A stretch of 64,000 nt of DNA from Amycolatopsis mongoliensis. Its GTDB lineage: Bacteria > Actinomycetota > Actinomycetes > Mycobacteriales > Pseudonocardiaceae. The translations under genes were made by a program, and so were the position numbers. Within the stretch, counting starts at the first letter, position 1, and the number at the start of each line of letters is the position of its first letter. Shown piece after piece: positions 7,605-15,398 of the stretch. The stretch lies in NCBI RefSeq assembly GCF_030285665.1, contig NZ_CP127295.1, forward strand, positions 1,736,001 through 1,800,000, read 5' to 3'. Under the pieces are notes generated by a model. It saw only the letters and a program-made list of their open reading frames with translations. It made no database searches and was not told where the DNA came from.

Positions 7605-7611
7605 CCGTGGG

Positions 7612-7694
7612 TGGCGGGTGAGGGATTCGAACCCCCGTAGGCGTAAGCCAACTGGTTTACAGCCAGTCCCCTTTGGCCACTCGGGTAACCCGCC
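7612..7694 (-). tRNA. tRNA-Tyr (anticodon GTA)
   Basis: On the minus strand the acceptor arms GGCGGGT (7694-7688) and ACCCGCC (7619-7613) pair perfectly, followed by discriminator A at 7612. The anticodon loop reads CTGTAAA, giving GTA for tyrosine. A long variable arm makes this a class II tRNA, as expected for bacterial tRNA-Tyr, and the T loop is GTTCGAATC. CCA is not encoded. It lies close to the integrative element, but its 3' end is not duplicated there, so it is not the attachment site. Confidence 0.97.
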
Positions 7695-7823
7695 ATGGCC
7701 GGTCGAACCGGCCGGGGAGAAGCTTACCCAACGGGTCGGAGCGGGGGTCAACCGGGATGCCCGCCCCCCGGTGGGGGCTAGGCTGGGTGGCCCCTGACAA
7801 GCGAGTACGAGGTGTGAGGACAC

Positions 7824-8315
7824 GTGGCGGATCCCTCTTTCGACGTCGTGAGCAAGGTCGACCGCCAGGAGGTGGACAACGCGCTGAACCAGGCGAGCAA
7901 GGAGCTGGGCACCCGGTTCGACTTCCGCGGCACGGGCACGACGATCAACTGGTCCGGCGAGGAGGCGATCACGATCGAGTCCGAGACGGAGGAGCGTGCG
8001 CTGGCCGCGGTCGAGGTGTTCAAGGAGAAGCTGATCAAGCGCAGCATCTCGTTGAAGGCGTTCGAAGCGGACGAGCCGGCCCTGTCGGGCAAGATCTACA
8101 AGATCGGCGGCAAGATCCTCCAGGGCATTGCGTCGGACAAGGCGAAGCAGATCGCCAAGTTCATCCGGGATGAGGGGCCGAAGGGTGTGCAGGCCCAGAT
8201 CCAGGGTGATCAGCTGCGGGTTTCGGGCAAGAAGAAGGACCAGCTGCAGGACGTGATCGCCTTGCTGAAGGGCAAGGACTTCGAGATCGCGTTGCAGTTC
8301 ACGAATTACCGGTGA
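7824..8315 (+). CDS. yajQ: YajQ-family nucleotide-binding protein
   Basis: Cytoplasmic YajQ-family protein, 163 aa, the full usual length. It begins [12 protein letters not shown] and contains the family signature [13 protein letters not shown]; family members elsewhere bind cyclic di-GMP or nucleotides. GTG at 7824 is preceded by GAGGA (7816-7820). The oddity is at the 3' end: the last 18 coding bases (8294-8311) are repeated at 14672-14689, so an integrative element has inserted into the end of this gene. The element supplies the final base of the last Arg codon and the stop (CGG TGA against CGC TGA at the far end), so the protein is unchanged. Confidence 0.95.
8294..8311. other. attL core (18-bp direct repeat, left copy)
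   Basis: The sequence gcagttcacgaattaccg at the 3' end of yajQ is identical to 14672-14689. Flanking bases before it differ (gtt against gac). After it only one base differs (g against c) before a shared tga, so the homology can be read as 22 bp with one mismatch. Confidence 0.85.
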
Positions 8316-8346
8316 CGCACCCTCGTTGACCTGCGGGTATCTGGTT

Positions 8347-9549
8347 TCAGGTGCCCGTGGGTACAACGTCGGTACAACCGAGCGCGGAGTCGACGAGCGT
8401 CCGCGTCTGGTCCACCGCGTCCGGCCAGTAGCCGACGTAGGTGTTGAGCGTCACCGCGGGCGTGGTGTGGCCCATGGCGAGCTGGACGGTCTTGACGTTC
8501 GCTCCGCCGAAGATCAGCACCGTGGCGAAGTAGTGCCGCAGGTCACGCAGGCCGAAGCCTTCCGGCAGCCCAGCGGCCTTCACGGCCGGACGCCAGATGT
8601 ACGACCAGTCGGCCCGGTGGATCGGACGGCCGTCGCCCCGGGTGAACACGAGGTTGGCGGGCCGCCGGATCGGCCGGCGGGGGTCGGTCTCGTCGTCGAT
8701 CTCCTCCGGCAGAGACCGGAAGGTCTCCAGGTGGCCGCGCAGGGAGTTCGCGACCAGCGTCGGCAGCTCGTTCGCCCGGCGGCTGGTTTTGGTCTTCGGC
8801 GGGGCCAGGTACGGCGTGCGGCCGGACACCACGGTGAGCTGATGCCGGACCTCGACCTCCATCGCGTCGAAGTCGATCGCGTCCCGCTCCAGGCCGAAGA
8901 TCTCGCCACCACGCCAGCCGCAGCCAGCCGCCAGGTAGACGATGGGCCGGTACCGCTCCGGCAGCGCGTCGTGGAGCGCGTGGACCTCTTCGGGACGCGC
9001 GATGTAGTACTGGGCGTCCTCGATCTCCGGCAGCCGGATGCCGACGCACGGGGACGTCCCGATGCGCTTGTCGGCGACGGCCGCGTTGAACAGCGGGACG
9101 AGGGTCCCGAAGTAGACGACCGTGAGCGTGCTCGGAGCGAGCTTCGCGACTCGATCCTTTACCCAGCCCCGAATGTGGGAGCTACGGATCTGTGCGATGG
9201 GCAGCTCACCGAGCACGGGCACCAGGTGCCGCCGGATCACGCGCTCGGTGCGTTCGGCCGTGCTCGGGCGGTGCAGCAGCGTCTGCCGCCACTGGTCCGC
9301 GTAGTCCTTGAACGTCAGCCGTCCGGCGCGTGGGTCGACGTACTGGCCGCGCGAGATGTCGGCGTGCATGTTCGCGTCGTGCCGGTCGGCGTCGGCGCGG
9401 CGCTCGAACAGCTCGGTACGGGCTTGTCCGGTGTCCGGGTCCACCCAGCGCACGCGCCAGCGCTTACCGCGTCCGTGGCGCTTCGAACGCAGCCGTTCGC
9501 CGGTGACGGAGTCGCGTTTCCGCAGGTACCAAAGGTCGTCAACGGCCAT
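8347..9549 (-). CDS. int: Tyrosine site-specific integrase
   Basis: Integrase of the tyrosine recombinase family, 400 aa, expected to recombine the yajQ 3'-end att sites. An N-terminal arm-binding-like region (about 1-75) precedes a SAM-like core-binding domain and the catalytic domain. Catalytic residues visible are Arg213 (GCGWRGGE), Arg338 in LRDLRHYF (Arg rather than His at the first box-II position), the MGHTTP box and the nucleophile Tyr371 in TLNTYVGY. I chose ATG at 9549, preceded by GGGGGA, over a longer frame. Its start overlaps the rep stop by 11 nt, so it is probably translated from the rep message. The gene points to attL, 36 bp away. Confidence 0.93.
   Translation of the reverse strand: MAVDDLWYLRKRDSVTGERLRSKRHGRGKRWRVRWVDPDTGQARTELFERRADADRHDANMHADISRGQYVDPRAGRLTFKDYADQWRQTLLHRPSTAERTERVIRRHLVPVLGELPIAQIRSSHIRGWVKDRVAKLAPSTLTVVYFGTLVPLFNAAVADKRIGTSPCVGIRLPEIEDAQYYIARPEEVHALHDALPERYRPIVYLAAGCGWRGGEIFGLERDAIDFDAMEVEVRHQLTVVSGRTPYLAPPKTKTSRRANELPTLVANSLRGHLETFRSLPEEIDDETDPRRPIRRPANLVFTRGDGRPIHRADWSYIWRPAVKAAGLPEGFGLRDLRHYFATVLIFGGANVKTVQLAMGHTTPAVTLNTYVGYWPDAVDQTRTLVDSALGCTDVVPTGT
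8360..8376. repeat. Direct repeat near attL (possible integrase arm site)
   Basis: The sequence ggtacaacgtcggtaca here and ggtacaaatccggtaca at 14562-14578 share 14 of 17 positions; the three central bases differ. Both contain two ggtaca units 10 bp apart, and both lie just inside the element (about 50 and 95 bp from the att cores). This is the layout of arm-type integrase sites. This copy lies within the 3' end of the integrase gene. Confidence 0.4.
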
Positions 9550-10942
9550 GTGGTCCCCCACCGTCGTCGTCCTGGCCGTCGAGCTTGCGCCGGGCGAGGT
9601 GCAGTTCGGCGAACACGGCGGCAAGCCGTCGTTCCGCGTCGTTGTGGTAGCCGATGCCGGTCATGGACCAGTCGTTGACGACGGTCAGGACCTCGGTGTC
9701 GGCGATGCCCAGGGCCTCACGCTGCTCATCGAGGCGGTACTCCGCCCGGGTACGGCGGATCTGCCCGAACGTCGTCGAGTAGCGGCGGGACTTGGTCAGG
9801 AAGTGGCCCCGGAACCCGAGCATGTGCGCCCACTTCCGGAGGTTCAGCTCCCGGTACTCGGGCAGGCCACCGAGCCGCCACGCAGTGCGCATGAGCTGCT
9901 TGTGGTGCTCGGTGATCGGAAGCTGTTCGATGTGCTCGGCCGAGCGGATGCGGTAGTCGGAGCCCTCGGTGAGGCGGGTGCCCTTGGTGGCGTACTTGGC
10001 GACGTAGCCCGCGACGCGCCGGTCGTGCCAACCACCGTCCGAGTCCTCCGAGGCGCCTTCCGAGGCCGCGATGGGCTCCACGTCGACCTGCTCACCCCAG
10101 GTCAGCTCGACCACGCCGACCGCCGGGGACTCGGGGGCGCGTACGACGACGGAGGCCGCCGCGTCCTCGATCACGGCGGTCAGGAGGTCGCCGGTCACTT
10201 CGGCCGGCGGGGGCGGTCCGTCCGGTCCCTCGGGGCCATCGACGCGCACGACGGCGTGGAAGTGGATGAGGCCGCGCCGCTGGTACTCCGCGACCTTGGC
10301 GTAGGACAGGCGCATGACCTCGCGCAGCTCAGCCGGACGCAGCCCGAGGGCCCGAGCGAGCTTGCGCCCCACGGCGATGGTGAAGCGGCGCCACAGCTCC
10401 CCGGCGTGGGCTTGCCACAGCACCGACCCGACGTAGTCGTAGGCCTCCGGGTCGAGGGGCGTACCGAGGACGTCGTCGTACTGGGAGTGCAGCTCACCGC
10501 AGGAGCAGCGGCGCACGTGTCCATTGCGGAACGGTCGCGAGTGGACTTTCCCGAACGACGGCGCGGTCAGCGTCGCCAGCACGCGCAGGTGACCGGTGAC
10601 GGTCTCGGGGACACCCTTGCCCCCGGCCATGCCAGCGCGGATGAGGTGGAACGTGTCGTGCGCGTAGTGGGCGGAGCAGGACTCGCACACCGACGCGCGC
10701 CGGTTCTTGCAGGGGACGAACACGCTGCCGGACAGCTCGGCGACAACCTTGCCGGAGGAGTCGACCACAGTGGATCCCCCGGCCATCCGGACCGGCTTCG
10801 CGCAACCCCGAGCGGCCTTGACCTTCCCGGCCCAGGTGTCGAAGTTCGCGCGGGCGAGGACGTGCGACAGCGCCGGGTCCAGCGTGCCGGACTCCGAGAA
10901 CGCGGCCACCACCTCACCGAAGCCAGCCGGAGCAGCCACCAT
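9539..10942 (-). CDS. RepSA-like replication initiator (HUH type)
   Basis: Replication initiator protein, 467 aa, of the family found on pSAM2-type actinomycete integrative elements, which replicate by rolling circle when excised. Cysteine pairs in the N-terminal third (CKNRRASVCESC, CSCGELH) resemble zinc knuckles. The HUH metal-binding motif is IHFHAVV (His227, His229), and the likely catalytic tyrosines lie in GYVAKYATKG (Tyr313, Tyr317). ATG at 10942 overlaps the stop of the upstream gene as TGATG, so translation is coupled; an upstream in-frame extension is unlikely for that reason. The double-strand origin is unknown but may lie in the 13.2-13.7 kb non-coding region. Confidence 0.88.
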   Translation of the reverse strand: MVAAPAGFGEVVAAFSESGTLDPALSHVLARANFDTWAGKVKAARGCAKPVRMAGGSTVVDSSGKVVAELSGSVFVPCKNRRASVCESCSAHYAHDTFHLIRAGMAGGKGVPETVTGHLRVLATLTAPSFGKVHSRPFRNGHVRRCSCGELHSQYDDVLGTPLDPEAYDYVGSVLWQAHAGELWRRFTIAVGRKLARALGLRPAELREVMRLSYAKVAEYQRRGLIHFHAVVRVDGPEGPDGPPPPAEVTGDLLTAVIEDAAASVVVRAPESPAVGVVELTWGEQVDVEPIAASEGASEDSDGGWHDRRVAGYVAKYATKGTRLTEGSDYRIRSAEHIEQLPITEHHKQLMRTAWRLGGLPEYRELNLRKWAHMLGFRGHFLTKSRRYSTTFGQIRRTRAEYRLDEQREALGIADTEVLTVVNDWSMTGIGYHNDAERRLAAVFAELHLARRKLDGQDDDGGGPHGR

Positions 10943-11454
10943 CAGGCAGCCACCCCCGCCCGAGCGGCGCCCGGCCAACCGGTCCGGGTCGAGCGGCGGT
11001 CACCCCACACAACGGGACGGGACACCGAGTGCACGCCGTCCAGGCAGGGCACTTCGAGGACTTCCCCTCGCTCCACGAGGGCGTTCCAGCGCTCCAGCGA
11101 GACGCCCATGTTCAGGACCAGGTCCTGGACCAGCTCGGGGAGGTCAGCGAACCGCAGGTCGCAGAACCGGCGGCCCGTCTCCGAGTCCACATCGGACAGG
11201 CGGAACCGCTCGCCAGGCAGGCGACGGACCTGCGCGCAGTGGCGTTCCTGCCGGGCCACGACCATCTCCGAGTAGGAGCCGAACCGGCCCTCGCCCCGGC
11301 AGGTGCGGCAGGCGACGCCGGACCCGGGCGTGAGCGTGCCCATGCCCGAGCACGACCAGCACGGCGTCCACGCGATCACGGGAGCCTGGATGTGCGGCTG
11401 CCCGCAGCGGGAGCAGTCGAAGGTGAGCACGTCACCGAGCTGCATGGCGGTCAT
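10942..11454 (-). CDS. Zinc-ribbon-like small protein of the element
   Basis: A 170-aa protein I cannot name. The N-terminal 60 residues carry three cysteine pairs: CSRC (about 14-17), CWSCSGMG (about 32-39) and CRTCRGEG (about 49-56). The CxxCxGxG spacing is like the DnaJ zinc-binding centre. The remainder is acidic and mixed and ends in a basic, Arg-rich tail. It is immediately upstream of rep with overlapping stop and start codons, and 4 nt downstream of another Cys-containing gene, so all belong to one operon. A role in replication control or folding of Rep is only a guess from position. Confidence 0.72.
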   Translation of the reverse strand: MTAMQLGDVLTFDCSRCGQPHIQAPVIAWTPCWSCSGMGTLTPGSGVACRTCRGEGRFGSYSEMVVARQERHCAQVRRLPGERFRLSDVDSETGRRFCDLRFADLPELVQDLVLNMGVSLERWNALVERGEVLEVPCLDGVHSVSRPVVWGDRRSTRTGWPGAARAGVAA

Positions 11455-11457
11455 GGC

Positions 11458-11856
11458 TCAGACCCCCGCGCAGAAGCAGACGTAGGCCGTGCCGACGGTC
11501 CCGGTCACGGAGCCGTCCCGATCGCAGGCCGCGAGGGTGCCCCAGCAGTCCGGGCACCAGCCAGCGGGGCCAGCACGGTGCACGCGATCGGGGAACGTGC
11601 GGAACAGCGGGGCCAGGGAGTAGTACTGGAACGGCCCGACGACGGTGTAGGTCTCCCCCGCGTCCACGAGCGCTTCCCACTTCGCTTCGGTCAGCCCGAC
11701 GACGTCCGTGATCACGTCCTCGACGTACGGCGGCAGGTCACCGAACTTGTTGCGGCCGAACGGTTCCAGCGTCAGCGGGTTCTCGTCGGAGAACCGGAAC
11801 CGCTCCGGGATCACCGTCACGTACCGCTCGTCATCCAGCAGTGCAAGAGCGCCCAT
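11458..11856 (-). CDS. Small hypothetical protein, first gene of the rep-int operon
   Basis: A 132-aa protein with no family I recognise. Start ATG 11856 is well supported by GGAGG with 5-nt spacing. The first two thirds are acidic and aromatic-rich (VTVIPERFRFSDENP, FGDLPPYVEDVI). The C-terminal 35 residues hold four cysteines (WCPDCWGTLAAC, CFCAG), suggesting a metal-binding ribbon. The middle resembles a segment of the 170-aa downstream protein (RFRLSDVDSETG / DLPELVQDLV), so the two may be diverged duplicates with shuffled ribbon position. It is transcribed from the operator-containing divergent promoter. Confidence 0.7.
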   Translation of the reverse strand: MGALALLDDERYVTVIPERFRFSDENPLTLEPFGRNKFGDLPPYVEDVITDVVGLTEAKWEALVDAGETYTVVGPFQYYSLAPLFRTFPDRVHRAGPAGWCPDCWGTLAACDRDGSVTGTVGTAYVCFCAGV

Positions 11857-11887
11857 GTTCGCCTCCGTCGTCGCGCCGACCCGGTCA

Positions 11888-11967
11888 ACCTCCCTAGGGA
11901 GGTATTCTCAGATTGCACCTCCCTAGGGAGGTTGTCAAGCGAGGTGTGGAGGTCTCACTAGGGAGGC
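11888..11967. promoter_or_regulatory. Divergent promoter with GntR-type palindromic operators
   Basis: Two identical perfect 16-bp palindromes, acctccctagggaggt, lie at 11888-11903 and 11917-11932, 29 bp apart centre to centre. A degenerate third copy with an intact right half (ctagggagg) lies at 11952-11967. On the minus strand a TTGACA hexamer (complement of 11933-11938) abuts the second palindrome, so the operator would sit between -35 and -10 of the rep-int promoter. The third copy lies 35 bp upstream of the GntR start and could give autoregulation. The cognate regulator is inferred to be the adjacent GntR protein. Confidence 0.75.
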
Positions 11968-12002
11968 CGTACGCTGGACGTTGACGCAGCGAAGGAGACC
12001 CC

Positions 12003-12770
12003 GTGTCGGAACGGCTACCGCTCAGCAGACGGATCGCGGCCGACTTACGCGCCGCGATCATGCAGGGCGAACTCGCTCCGGGGGCCGTGCTTCCGTCCGA
12101 GCGACAGCTCATCGCTCAGTACGGCACGACGAAGGCGACGGCCGGCAAGGCGATTGCCTACCTGGTCTCCGAGGGCCTGGTGACGACCGAGTTCGGACGC
12201 GGCACCTTCGTCCGACGCCGCCCACCCCTCCGTCGCGTCTCGGCAGCACGACGCCACGCGGCCCACCGGGACACCGGGAAGCCCGTCTTCGACGTCGGAG
12301 CCATCGAGCAGGGCCGGGTTCCGTCGCGCCGGATCCTCTTCGTCGGGCGCGCTCCCCTTCCCGCGAACGCAGCTCATTGGCTACGCGCCTCACCCGGCGA
12401 CGAGGCAGTGGTACGCCGTCGTTTGCAGTTCCTCGACGAAGAGCCGGTCGTGGTCTCCGCGAGCTACTACCCGCTGTGGCTCGCAGCGGACACCCGGCTC
12501 GAATCACCCGACGCGCTCCCGGAGGGGCCCGACGAGCTGATCGAGTCGCTGGGGCACACGTTCTTCCGAGGGGTCGAGGTGTTCAGCGCGCTCATGCCGA
12601 CCCCGGAGGAGACGGAGCTGCTCAACCTCCACGCGGGGGTGCCGGTGATGCATATGTGGGACGTCGACTACGACAAGGACGGCAGGCCGTTGCAGGCCGC
12701 TCACGACGTCTACGCAGGCGACAAGCACGAGTTCATCTACGAATGGAACGAAGGCGACATTCAGCCATGA
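12003..12770 (+). CDS. GntR-family (HutC/UTRA) repressor of the element
   Basis: DNA-binding regulator, 255 aa. The N-terminal winged helix (about 5-70) has the GntR pattern (PLSRRIAADLRAAI, LPSERQLIAQYG, GLVTTEFGRGTFV); a UTRA-like effector domain follows (about 95-250). GTG 12003 is preceded by GAAGGAG at 11991-11997. By position and family it matches KorSA-type repressors that hold pSAM2-like elements quiescent by blocking the replication/integration promoter. It probably binds the acctccctagggaggt palindromes just upstream. Its stop overlaps the start of the HIT gene. The ligand, if any, is unknown. Confidence 0.88.
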   Translation: MSERLPLSRRIAADLRAAIMQGELAPGAVLPSERQLIAQYGTTKATAGKAIAYLVSEGLVTTEFGRGTFVRRRPPLRRVSAARRHAAHRDTGKPVFDVGAIEQGRVPSRRILFVGRAPLPANAAHWLRASPGDEAVVRRRLQFLDEEPVVVSASYYPLWLAADTRLESPDALPEGPDELIESLGHTFFRGVEVFSALMPTPEETELLNLHAGVPVMHMWDVDYDKDGRPLQAAHDVYAGDKHEFIYEWNEGDIQP

Positions 12771-13240
12771 CGAGCGAGTGGCCCGGCAACTGGGCTGACC
12801 GGATCAGCGGCGAAGCCTGTGAGATGTGCCAGTCGAGGCGCTTGGACGAGGACACCTACGGCATCCGGATCTTCGAGACGGCCGATGTGGACGCCGTGCT
12901 CCAGCGGGCCGATATCCAGCGCGGGTACACGCTCGTGATCTGGCGCGGACGTCACGTCGTCGAGCCGTTCGAGCTGACGGACTCGGAGGCGCAGGCGTAC
13001 TGGAAGGCGACGTTGACCGTGGCGAAGGCGCTGGCCACGTTCTATCGGCCACTCAAGATGAACTACGAGACGCTGGGGAACACCGTCCCGCATCTCCACA
13101 CGCACCTACTGCCGCGCTTCGTCGAGGACCCTGCTCCGGGGAGGCCGTTCCCGCTGCTGCCTCAGAGTGGCGACGAATCCAAGATCGATCCTGCGAAACT
13201 CGCCAGCGACGCTGCAGCGCTTCGGACTCTTCTCGGTTGA
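12767..13240 (+). CDS. HIT-family hydrolase of the element
   Basis: Histidine-triad protein, 157 aa, with the family motif HLHTHLLPR (about 108-116). HIT proteins hydrolyse or transfer nucleotide phosphates. An early CEMCQSRR segment resembles the Cys pair at the start of many HIT proteins. ATG 12767 overlaps the GntR stop by 4 nt, so the two are coupled; a longer open frame upstream lies inside the GntR gene and is a shadow. pSAM2 carries an unrelated nucleotide-hydrolase-like (Nudix) protein, Pif, that blocks redundant transfer; whether this HIT protein has a similar role is speculation. Confidence 0.85.
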   Translation: MTSEWPGNWADRISGEACEMCQSRRLDEDTYGIRIFETADVDAVLQRADIQRGYTLVIWRGRHVVEPFELTDSEAQAYWKATLTVAKALATFYRPLKMNYETLGNTVPHLHTHLLPRFVEDPAPGRPFPLLPQSGDESKIDPAKLASDAAALRTLLG

Positions 13241-13341
13241 GCCGCTGCCCGTGAGGCGGAGGCTTGGTGAGAACTTTCTCTACAGGATCAAGGCGGCCCC
13301 TGCGGGGCCACTCGGCCCCAGCTCTTTGCTCCGGCCAAGCC

Positions 13342-13381
13342 CTCGCGGGGGCGTGCGGCCTGGCGGCCGGTCCCCCGCGAG
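13342..13381. repeat. GC-rich stem-loop
   Basis: The arms ctcgcggggg (13342-13351) and cccccgcgag (13372-13381) pair perfectly, with a further ggcc/ggcc pairing possible inside the 20-nt loop. It may be a terminator for GntR-HIT or part of a replication origin. Confidence 0.55.
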
Positions 13382-13535
13382 TCGGCCGGGGCGAGTGGGC
13401 CGAAGGGTTCGGGTGAGCCGTGGATCCGAGAAGAGTTGTCCTCGCCGGACGGGCAGGTCTCCGAGATGGCCGGCGGGGCTCGCATGTTGCGTCCGTGGTT
13501 GGCCAGACGGCATCTCGTCAACCTCCCGGAGGGCT

Positions 13536-13610
13536 ATCACGCCGCGTCAAGGGGGCGGTTTCGGAGCTCAGTCACGGTCAGCGGAAGGTGCCCCCTTGAC
13601 GCGGCGTGAT
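13536..13610. repeat. Perfect 21-bp inverted repeat
   Basis: The arms 13536-13556 and 13590-13610 are exact reverse complements (core gccgcgtcaaggggg), separated by 33 nt. No transposase lies inside or beside it, so it is not an insertion sequence. It may be a terminator between the convergent HIT and nuclease-like genes, or an origin or transfer signal. Confidence 0.7.
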
Positions 13611-13659
13611 CGGGCTACGCCAGGTCGACGAGATACCGAGAGGCCATCCACTCTGTTGA

Positions 13660-14514
13660 TCAAGCCCCTCGCACCCGCATATTGAGCCGGTCAGTCACAC
13701 CATCAACGTGATCTAACCATTTTTCCAGGTGCACAAATGGGACCACGTCAAAAATACTTCGCCGATGCCTGCTAGCCTCCATCCACGACGCTCGATTCTC
13801 GTGCACAACTGCGACAAAATCGCGGTCTTGCAGCACCACTTCATCTACGCCGACAGGATCGACAACCTTTAAGTCTCCACCGGTGACACATGCCGGAAAA
13901 ATCGCACCGTCTCTCCCCGATTTTGTCTCCCCACCCAACATTGTGCGCCTGAGATCAAACGCGGCCTTAATAGGTGGATATCCAATCTCCGGCAGGACAT
14001 TCCTTGCCTTAAACCCTTTACCCTCTCTCTCGATTCTAACGATCTGCACCGCTTTTTCAATGTTGTTCAAGCGGAAGACTTCCCAGTCGTCGCCCAAGCC
14101 GAGCGTCTCCCAAGCGCGCTTGACTTGGTACGACTGGCCAGGCACAGGGTTAACAGGTCGATGCTTCTCAGCTTCCGAATTATCAACCTTGGAGAGCCTC
14201 AGCTCAAATGGCGGATTCCCTCGTTCATACGGCGTCCACGGCCTCGTAAAGGCGACGTGAGTCTGAGGACTACTCTTACACTCAATTACAACAATCTGCG
14301 CAATTGGATGCTCAGCTTGCTCGTCGGTGGCAATATACTTCAAGCCGATTACGTCGATCTCTCTCGGCTTTCCCTCGTCAGGATCCACATACGACCCCGC
14401 GATACGAGTAGAGTAACCGCGACACTCAAGCACCAACGCGACCCTCTGCTCAAGAAGAAATCCTGAGGCTAACAATGCCTCTGCAGTCTCGGCGTCAGTC
14501 GGCTTTTCACCCAT
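13660..14514 (-). CDS. PD-(D/E)XK nuclease-like cargo protein
   Basis: A 284-aa protein of unknown role with a restriction-endonuclease-like core in its N-terminal third: Glu22 in FLLEQRVALVLE, Asp54 in REIDVIG and Glu78-Cys-Lys80 in VVIECKSS, the E...D...ExK pattern of PD-(D/E)XK nucleases, as in Mrr-like or Holliday-junction-type enzymes. The remaining 200 residues match nothing I know. I chose ATG 14514; the frame continues upstream but only a weak GGGG ribosome site supports either start. The gene is visibly richer in A and T than its surroundings, which suggests recent acquisition. No methylase or partner gene adjoins it, so it could be a stand-alone anti-phage protein or a DNA-repair enzyme. 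Confidence 0.7.
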   Translation of the reverse strand: MGEKPTDAETAEALLASGFLLEQRVALVLECRGYSTRIAGSYVDPDEGKPREIDVIGLKYIATDEQAEHPIAQIVVIECKSSPQTHVAFTRPWTPYERGNPPFELRLSKVDNSEAEKHRPVNPVPGQSYQVKRAWETLGLGDDWEVFRLNNIEKAVQIVRIEREGKGFKARNVLPEIGYPPIKAAFDLRRTMLGGETKSGRDGAIFPACVTGGDLKVVDPVGVDEVVLQDRDFVAVVHENRASWMEASRHRRSIFDVVPFVHLEKWLDHVDGVTDRLNMRVRGA

Positions 14515-14561
14515 TGCCCCAGAGTACGTCGCCAGACGTCCGCAACCGACTCGCCGCGCCG

Positions 14562-14578
14562 GGTACAAATCCGGTACA
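14562..14578. repeat. Direct repeat near attR (possible integrase arm site)
   Basis: The sequence ggtacaaatccggtaca matches 8360-8376 except for the three central bases. It lies 94 bp inside attR, between it and the nuclease-like gene. Confidence 0.4.
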
Positions 14579-14671
14579 GATGGCACCAACTAGCGACGAC
14601 CGACGACGACCATCAACGGGCACAAACCCGCAGCTCAGAGCCCCGCGCCACAGCATTACCCCAGGCCGGAC

Positions 14672-14689
14672 GCAGTTCACGAATTACCG
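14672..14689. other. attR core (18-bp direct repeat, right copy)
   Basis: Identical to 8294-8311. With the following ctga it still spells the C-terminal residues QFTNYR and a stop in frame, so it is the displaced original end of yajQ. The hairpin that follows at 14703-14729 would have been the native yajQ terminator. Confidence 0.85.
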
Positions 14690-14702
14690 CTGATCCCCTC
14701 GG

Positions 14703-14729
14703 CCCGCGGGCGCCGTAGACGCCCGCGGG
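14703..14729. terminator. Hairpin terminator, originally of yajQ
   Basis: The arms cccgcgggcg (14703-14712) and cgcccgcggg (14720-14729) with a 7-nt loop lie between attR and the stop codon of the convergent lipoprotein gene. It now lies 6.4 kb from yajQ and can serve the lipoprotein gene on the minus strand. Confidence 0.7.
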
Positions 14730-15398
14730 TCAGGACGGTGTCACCGTCCAGCTCGCTTCGTACCCGTCCACCCGCAGGTAAGCCGGCCCACGGACCTCAC
14801 GGTCCACGTCCACATCGCCGATCTCGTTGACCAGCAGGTCGCGGTCCTCCTCCGAGTGGACCCACAGGCCGATGTTGCCCTTGGTCTTCGCCGTGAACTT
14901 CACGTGCGTGATCCCCGCCGGCACGCGCAACACCGCGTCGCCCTTGCCCGATGTCGGTGCGCCCGCGGCTACCGCCGGCAAGCTCCGGTAGTCCGCGATC
15001 GTTGCCGTCCAGGCCGCGTTCGCGAGGACCGTCACCTTTCTCGTCGGGCGGTCCGGGTCCGTGTTCAGCCACGTCGTGCCCTGGTACTTGCCGATCGCGT
15101 TGACCAGGCCGAACTCGCCGCCGTCGGTGCTGATGATCACGTTCGACCCGCACTTCGGGCAGTCGAACGTGAAGAAGCCCAGCTGGTCCGCCGGCCACGT
15201 CACCGCGAACTCGCCCTCACCCTTGCCTGTGTGCGTCTCGGTCGCCACGTCGCGCGGCGCCGGGGCTGCCGAAGTAGTTGGCGTCGGCACCTCAGTCGAA
15301 GACGACGTCGGCGCCCCGACGATCGTGCCGAACCCCGTCGCGGGTGCGCACGCGGACACCAGGACCACCGCCAGCAGGCAGGACAGCCGGAGTTTCAT
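14730..15398 (-). CDS. Putative lipoprotein
   Basis: A 222-aa exported protein of unknown function. The first 17 residues form a lipoprotein signal with lipobox VSAC; a Ser/Thr/Pro/Ala-rich linker (about 25-55) follows and then a compact beta-rich domain. That domain has a CPKC pair (about 80-83) in FFTFDCPKCG and short GxW/T strands that suggest a sandwich. ATG 15398 is the only sensible start. It is transcribed towards the integrative element and is not part of it, as it lies outside attR. No neighbour hints at its role. Confidence 0.8.
   Translation of the reverse strand: MKLRLSCLLAVVLVSACAPATGFGTIVGAPTSSSTEVPTPTTSAAPAPRDVATETHTGKGEGEFAVTWPADQLGFFTFDCPKCGSNVIISTDGGEFGLVNAIGKYQGTTWLNTDPDRPTRKVTVLANAAWTATIADYRSLPAVAAGAPTSGKGDAVLRVPAGITHVKFTAKTKGNIGLWVHSEEDRDLLVNEIGDVDVDREVRGPAYLRVDGYEASWTVTPS

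Follow-up and report, generated by a model that had tools for sequence, protein, structure and literature searches.

An integrative element at the 3' end of yajQ in Amycolatopsis mongoliensis, with a pSAM2-type replication initiator and no detected translocase gene

The window analysed here is a stretch of 64,000 nucleotides from the genome of Amycolatopsis mongoliensis (G000, a single contig of 10.8 Mb; other G-numbers designate the genomes compared with it, and L-numbers designate loci). An integrative element had been predicted in the 3' end of its yajQ gene. Repeats, gene families and empty sites agreed on this point and confirmed a gene-preserving, site-specific integrative element at that place. 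We read it as a small mobile element on a pSAM2-type RepSA replicon which has no conjugation gene of its own, is kept partly through its cargo and would be moved by helpers, and we give this reading a probability of about 0.85.

The element and its site at yajQ

The site comprises the following features (positions are those of the window).

7824..8315, + strand: yajQ, encoding a YajQ-family cyclic-di-GMP-binding protein, the target (NCBIfam PRK05412.1, 3.6e-59)
8294..8311, + strand: attL core repeat (17-bp common core at 8295-8311), from the repeat search, the comparison of loci and the genome search
8324..8368, + strand: terminator-like hairpin immediately behind the yajQ stop, probably of element origin (-37.4 kcal/mol over 70 nt starting at 8313); left end kept in relatives
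14672..14689, + strand: attR core repeat; the displaced yajQ codon, the stop and the host hairpin lie behind it

The perfect direct repeat of 18 bp described around a block of 6.4 kb, GCAGTTCACGAATTACCG, is exact at 8294-8311 and 14672-14689 (6,378 bp from start to start). Widened to 22 nt, the copies are identical at 21 of the 22 bases. Comparison of the seven loci with both repeats narrowed it to a common core of 17 bp, CAGTTCACSAAYTACCG. When the whole genome was searched with this core (two free positions, at most one mismatch), only the two sites bounding the element were found, and a reversed control pattern gave none. Both core copies were present in all five complete Amycolatopsis elements and in two of the three gene-bearing remnants, and the same core occurs at the same spot of yajQ in other genera. 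The two copies agreed within the genome at all seven same-genus loci that have both (five complete elements, two remnants), with three core versions between genomes; the pattern used to search for the second core left three positions free, and agreement at those three is the informative part. The base to the right of the core differs between attL and attR in 4/7 loci and the base to its left in 1/7 (G029). The agreement within genomes fits strict matching of the attP and attB cores, or conversion after strand exchange.

The core spans the codons of the C-terminal YajQ residues QFTNYR. To the left of the element yajQ ends in CGG TGA and the displaced end to its right reads CGC TGA, so the element appears to have supplied the new last codon and stop; the hairpin that follows them probably has the same origin. 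yajQ thus stays whole, since the element brings the last codon, the stop and a terminator-like hairpin. Past attR, the host has a hairpin of its own (-39.2 kcal/mol, 60 nt). The tRNA-Tyr gene (7608-7695), said to lie about 600 bp away without being used, indeed ends 599 bp before the repeat.

Each of 60 same-genus genomes carries one copy of yajQ. A complete element lies downstream of it in five (G000, G037, G029, G025 and G042), which are also the five with full-length integrase matches of at least 91%, always at a distance of 38 nt from the last codon of yajQ. Three genomes have a remnant with element genes (G051, G030 and G056), and three have only a scar of the left end (G050, G026 and G048, scoring 79, 46 and 37, where 1,180 shuffles reached at most 22). 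Four sites are unclear (G054, G039, G052 and G001, left-end scores of 24-28), and the remaining 45 genomes show no trace of the element. As looked for by the original prediction, an uninterrupted yajQ followed by a hairpin was found: the lipoprotein gene found downstream of the element in A. mongoliensis ends 41-73 nt past yajQ in 32 of these 45 genomes, with a hairpin between the two in the empty sites that were inspected. The other 13 have longer or different spacers, which demonstrate only the absence of this element. A gene order universal in the genus is contradicted by these empty sites, and they also refute the view that ordinary chromosomal genes are flanked here by a chance repeat; the presence of only two core copies in the genome and the recurrence of the core at the same spot in other genera also speak against that view. 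A left-end motif recurs beyond attR in G025 and G030, which suggests accretion, and the remnant in A. eburnea includes an extra copy of the last 22 yajQ codons.

The replicon, its hairpin and its cargo

From its left end, the element carries the following genes and non-coding features, in this order.

8347..9549, - strand: tyrosine integrase (PF00589, 2.6e-15; PF14659, 7.4e-10)
9539..10978, - strand: RepSA-type replication initiator of the pSAM2 type (PF20199, 1.6e-147); the true start may lie downstream
10942..11454, - strand: small open reading frame (ORF) with no family match above cut-off in Pfam and NCBIfam; homologues in G037, G029 and partly G042
11458..11856, - strand: small ORF with no family match in Pfam and NCBIfam, kept in relatives
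11886..11934, no strand: palindrome CCTCCCTAGGGAGG, present twice in the region of the divergent promoters; putative operators for the GntR protein
12003..12770, + strand: GntR-UTRA regulator (PF00392, 4.8e-18; PF07702, 8e-22)
12767..13240, + strand: HIT-domain protein (PF01230, 1.9e-13)
13241..13652, no strand: conserved non-coding block with a giant hairpin, 88-94% identical over 387-413 nt in G029, G025, G042 and G030
13506..13641, no strand: giant imperfect hairpin (-103.6 kcal/mol for 13481-13660)
13660..14511, - strand: low-GC cargo gene, putatively PD-(D/E)XK nuclease-like (eight homologues, AF2 model)

The tyrosine integrase, the RepSA-like initiator and the GntR-type regulator, all named in the original prediction, are borne out by their families (PF00589, PF20199, and PF00392 with PF07702). 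RepSA also matched NF041486 (5.2e-132), below the curated cut-off of that family. The CCTCCCTAGGGAGG palindromes occur in four of the five complete Amycolatopsis elements, and the Thermocrispum element has a GNAT gene in place of HIT beside GntR. The prediction was silent on the HIT gene, the low-GC cargo, the arm-type repeats, the very large hairpin and the absence of a translocase gene.

The defining features of actinomycete integrative and conjugative elements (AICEs) are taken in part from PMC3218068 and PMC11706625 (PubMed Central [PMC] numbers). The integrase with att repeats, the RepSA initiator and the GntR regulator are all present, and the translocase is missing; for lack of that gene the element is not a full AICE. 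None of its scanned ORFs encodes an FtsK/SpoIIIE-like translocase (TraSA/TraB). A whole-genome search with PF01580 placed no match in the element among the 13 listed of 17 in G000 and missed a real translocase of G718 (Pfam, 3.2e-6), so direct queries were run with two translocases, from G718 and from an element at a tRNA-Pro gene of G000. They gave no match at E 1e-3 in any of the eight small yajQ elements, and all ORFs of at least 200 residues in these eight elements lack a Walker-A-like string. The same queries matched G718, two elements at nadD (G363 and G358, 44-46%) and one at thiD (G655); a third nadD element (G255) gave no match. At least four FtsK-family matches in G000 (E 5e-8 to 7e-9, above the Pfam cut-off) lie 2.5-4.5 kb from integrases, at 563981, 3890479, 4086381 and 8217579, and these loci are possible helpers. 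Seen as an integrative mobilizable element, the yajQ element has an integration module of its own, and its transfer would fall to such a helper.

The element resembles pSAM2-type AICEs in the tyrosine integrase beside the att site, RepSA, GntR and gene-preserving 3'-end integration, and differs from them in lacking an FtsK-like translocase and in its target, yajQ instead of a tRNA gene. A Nudix gene is reported beside GntR in AICEs (PMC11706625), where a HIT gene stands here. SLP1 of Streptomyces coelicolor (PMC3009677) is likewise integrative, restores its target and has a restriction-type nuclease near attR; it can excise precisely, as this element may. Unlike it, SLP1 is conjugative, measures 17.1 kb and uses tRNA-Tyr with a repeat of 112 bp, whereas here tRNA-Tyr was left intact and the repeat measures 17-18 bp. 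AICE03 of Streptomyces RLB3-6 (PMC9513070) is also of AICE type and lies in a protein-coding gene with a short repeat (11 nt), but its family is defined by its TraB protein, its integrase is another one and its target is rlmN. SGI1 and the dusA islands are likewise integrative, are mobilizable and occupy a conserved site within a protein-coding gene, yet they are gammaproteobacterial and mobilized by IncA/IncC plasmids.

The giant hairpin is a candidate single-strand replication origin or other cis-acting locus. In G037 only the first 231 nt of the surrounding block are kept, and in Thermocrispum and Saccharomonospora identity is about 71-75% over 227-403 nt. G037 and G332 have a differing sequence at this place, which also folds into large hairpins. 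Double-sided changes were seen in 6 of 57 hairpin pairs (seven sequences). A hairpin model, R1, built from six of the seven aligned hairpins (G042 left out), matched in 32 of the 60 genomes, at nine places in G047. The hairpin recurs twice in G000 (C1:8223160 and 2357838), once in the tRNA-Pro element (RepSA of 52% identity, a translocase and GntR) and once in a tRNA-Ile element (RepSA of 89.7%). We then considered 20 loci, 20-kb stretches hand-picked from the better-scoring R1 places outside G000 and yajQ (omitted were one G030 and one G058 place near another, two G001 places and the lower-scoring rest). RepSA was found in ten of them (in one by a 63-residue piece only), eight of which also have a translocase; as a control, RepSA occurred in 0/52 yajQ regions (7-12.5 kb, complete elements excluded). 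Eight of the ten loci without RepSA have a tRNA gene within the stretch, a figure without control. No known RNA family accounts for the hairpin, as Rfam gave no match at gathering score in 8200-14800, with three weak ones elsewhere. Separately, a scrap of the integrase (residues 372-401, 97%) adjoins a copy of the giant hairpin in G045 (L240, C7:51237-51463), about 1.6 kb from tRNA-Pro and not at yajQ.

Between the hairpin and the right end, each relative carries different, mostly low-GC genes. The cargo protein of A. mongoliensis shares invariant REID and ECK motifs with its eight homologues, has no Pfam or PADLOC match, and was modelled with AlphaFold 2 (AF2) at a mean predicted local distance difference test (pLDDT) score of 84. 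A PDB search with the model gave nothing significant (best E 0.052). The first ranks included chains of AF1548, Hjc, NotI and R2, weak matches which we take to be PD-(D/E)XK folds; with the invariant motif, they point to a nuclease-like protein. In G037 the slot holds a SIR2 gene (PF13289, 7e-23; PDC-S25, 2.8e-129), in G029 an XRE protein with an ImmA/IrrE-type peptidase (RmrA, 2.7e-60) and an unknown gene, and in G042 an HTH protein and a PP2C-like one, neither of which reaches its Pfam cut-off. Unknown proteins occupy it in G025, G332 and G381, and DUF4145 in G338. Of ten proteins given to PADLOC (one being the HIT protein), three matched, one of them weakly (PD-T7-4, 3.7e-5). The cargo of some relatives thus looks like a defence gene.

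The integrase group and its target sites

The integrase belongs to a wider group, whose members lie beside several conserved genes. A family scan of 390 genomes (E <= 1e-60) matched 41, and 30 loci were listed: 11 beside yajQ, 6 beside nadD, 2 about 0.3 kb from the RNase P RNA gene and 11 at other or unclear places. No tRNA gene was present in the fetched stretches (flanks of at most 1.5 kb) of the 19 loci away from yajQ. A class scan of 394 genomes (E <= 1e-70) added nine loci, one at yajQ, four at the RNase P RNA gene, one at thiD and three elsewhere. Outside Amycolatopsis, the yajQ site is used in Saccharomonospora sp. NB11, Thermocrispum municipale and, as a remnant, Actinokineospora bangkokensis; A. 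bartoniae has an integrase relative of 55% identity at yajQ. A repeat of the target's 3' end was clear at the far end in 12 of 21 loci, weak in 1 (G646) and not found in 8 (G273, G192, G226, G301, G292, G261, G474 and G051), some of which lie on short contigs.

The original prediction had proposed to look for other integrases of this clade beside yajQ and had suggested that the site might define a separate site-specific family. Close integrases do occur beside yajQ in other genera, but the integrases at this site do not make one clade and relatives use nadD, thiD and RNase P RNA genes, so that the proposed family is not supported as stated. In the tree, yajQ-site integrases comprise a main clade, G309 with G292, and G718, and a single clade was rejected by the approximately unbiased (AU) test (p 1.5e-6), which counted the A. 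bartoniae yajQ integrase twice (L065 and L153, same genome and same integrase). A single clade of nadD-site integrases was weakly rejected (AU p 0.02). RNase P-site integrases form one clade (support 99/97; L155, L156, L161, L162, L163 and L164), and the RNA gene beside them is complete (RF00010). The group shows target switching among conserved genes (yajQ, nadD, thiD and RNase P RNA), to judge from sequence comparison. No close plasmid or phage relative of the integrase emerged; among the matches listed, the best plasmid match had 33.7% identity and the best phage match 35.5%.

Several elements of the group deserve separate mention. Repeats of 28-33 bp from the 3' end of the RNase P RNA gene bound elements in G717 and G725, and the G717 element encodes a prohead protease (PF04586, 6.2e-15). 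Integrases at the 3' end of nadD, as named by NCBIfam, are L136, L137, L138, L139, L141 and L148, with repeats of 27-69 bp in three. A 17.8-kb element at yajQ in G309 (L172) looks like a prophage using the same site; its very long ORF was read as a tape measure and had no tape-measure match in Pfam.

Two pairs of repeats near the ends are putative arm sites of the integrase.

8360..8378, + strand: left arm-type repeats, two copies of GGTACAAC 11 bp apart
14562..14580, + strand: right arm-type repeats, GGTACAAA and GGTACAGA, 11 bp apart

In a survey of 15 elements, GGTACA pairs were present at both ends of all eight small yajQ elements (single copy on the right side in G025 and on the left side in G332). 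A GGTACANN pair near the left core (single copy in G332) was found in these eight and in all three nadD elements; GGTACATC is one of the left copies in the Saccharomonospora and Thermocrispum elements. Among the nadD elements, G363 and G358 have repeats at both ends and G255 at the left end only. None were seen near the ends in G718, G309, G655 and G717. The paired layout is the one that would be expected of integrase arm sites.

A protein-coding attB had been called unusual for actinomycete elements of this kind. Tyrosine-integrase AICEs do lie mostly at tRNA 3' ends, the pSLS subfamily being the exception, and three serine-integrase AICEs are named in protein genes (PMC3218068). The rarity was overstated, since of the insertion sites counted in a Streptomyces survey 36 were in tRNA genes, 14 were protein-coding and 1 was intergenic, with rlmN among the targets (PMC9513070). 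A protein-gene site as such therefore has precedent. No report joining yajQ, an integrase and attB was found in the literature searched, which did not cover supplementary tables that may list yajQ, and the main texts of PMC3218068, PMC12424338 and PMC12884075 do not mention the gene.

Mobility of the element and competing explanations

Recent horizontal transfer is visible for one relative. Between G000 and G029, DNA identity is 94.4% for int, 95.3% for repSA, 92.7% for gntR, 96.2% for hit and 90.5% for orfB, against 84.8% for rfbA, 82.1% for sial and 89.0% for yajQ outside the element. The closest of nine genomes compared by rfbA (96.4%) and sial (93.2%) is G059, which has no element. The near-identical body in the distant host G029 seems to have spread as a tra-less unit.

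According to the mechanism that we propose, the integrase would bind, at either end, the core together with the GGTACA pair of arm sites, and the GntR protein would repress the divergent int-rep genes through the CCTCCCTAGGGAGG palindromes. Upon derepression, the element would excise and undergo RepSA-driven rolling-circle replication, for which the giant hairpin would serve as a cis-acting origin. Movement from cell to cell would be helped by a co-resident tra-bearing AICE or, failing that, by a phage, and upkeep would depend partly on the exchangeable cargo, defence-like in some relatives.

Several observations weigh against this reading. The int, repSA, gntR and hit genes of G037 and G025 (92.6-95.6%) do not clearly exceed the flanks (87.7-93.9%) in identity, and in G042 the element (78.0-86.5%) is no closer than its flanks (83.4-88.6%), so that recent transfer can be seen for G029 only; orfB is 86.6% identical in G037 and has no match in G025. 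The G042 element has a different regulator and lacks the CCTCCCTAGGGAGG palindromes. The covariation term of the hairpin is slightly unfavourable (+2.04), and R1 gives no match in G037. Scanning the listed ORFs against Pfam and NCBIfam revealed no excisionase, though a very small ORF could have escaped. Finally, we infer excision, replication and transfer from comparison, and the part of helpers in that transfer is likewise only inferred.

The best of the other explanations, which we nevertheless hold to be improbable, is a decayed AICE: a formerly conjugative element of the pSAM2 type would have been stranded by the loss of its transfer genes, and its relatives would have decayed independently. 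AICE accretion, decay and empty sites have been reported (PMC9513070), remnants and scars are common at the yajQ site, and a translocase is missing here whereas the nadD-site elements of G363 and G358 have one. Against it stands the tra-less layout shared by the five Amycolatopsis elements and those of Saccharomonospora, G332 and Thermocrispum (about 5.8-7.2 kb), all with int and rep open and both cores present, and the apparent spread to G029 as a tra-less unit also speaks against it. Such a loss is compatible with the mobile, helper-moved element that we favour, which may have arisen in this way.

Still less probable is a phage satellite, moved in phage particles and not by conjugation helpers. 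The small size, the integrase with a replication gene and the exchangeable, defence-like cargo would suit it, and the same wider integrase group occurs in prophage-like elements (G309 at yajQ and G717 at the RNase P gene). Against this, no phage structural or packaging family was present among the scanned ORFs of the small yajQ elements (not every ORF of the relatives was scanned), no integrase relative was found in viral contigs, and RepSA and GntR are AICE genes.

More interesting than the choice of a protein gene are the tra-less layout with its cargo slot, the hairpin common to tra-bearing elements and an integrase group spanning yajQ, nadD, thiD and RNase P RNA. The way in which tyrosine integrases switch targets could be studied in this group. 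For Amycolatopsis and its relatives, the site is a possible vector site, being natural, gene-preserving and in a conserved gene that is single-copy in 60 genomes; the core, arms and host range of its integrase are outlined by the comparison. Whether actinomycete elements are mobilized in trans can be tested concretely here, given the lack of a transfer gene and a hairpin in common with tra-bearing elements. More tentatively, a tra-less RepSA lineage might live off resident AICEs via the shared hairpin, through common replication or transfer machinery, with one exchangeable defence gene and site-switching integrases. If so, its members would parallel, in actinobacteria, the conjugation parasites and phage satellites.

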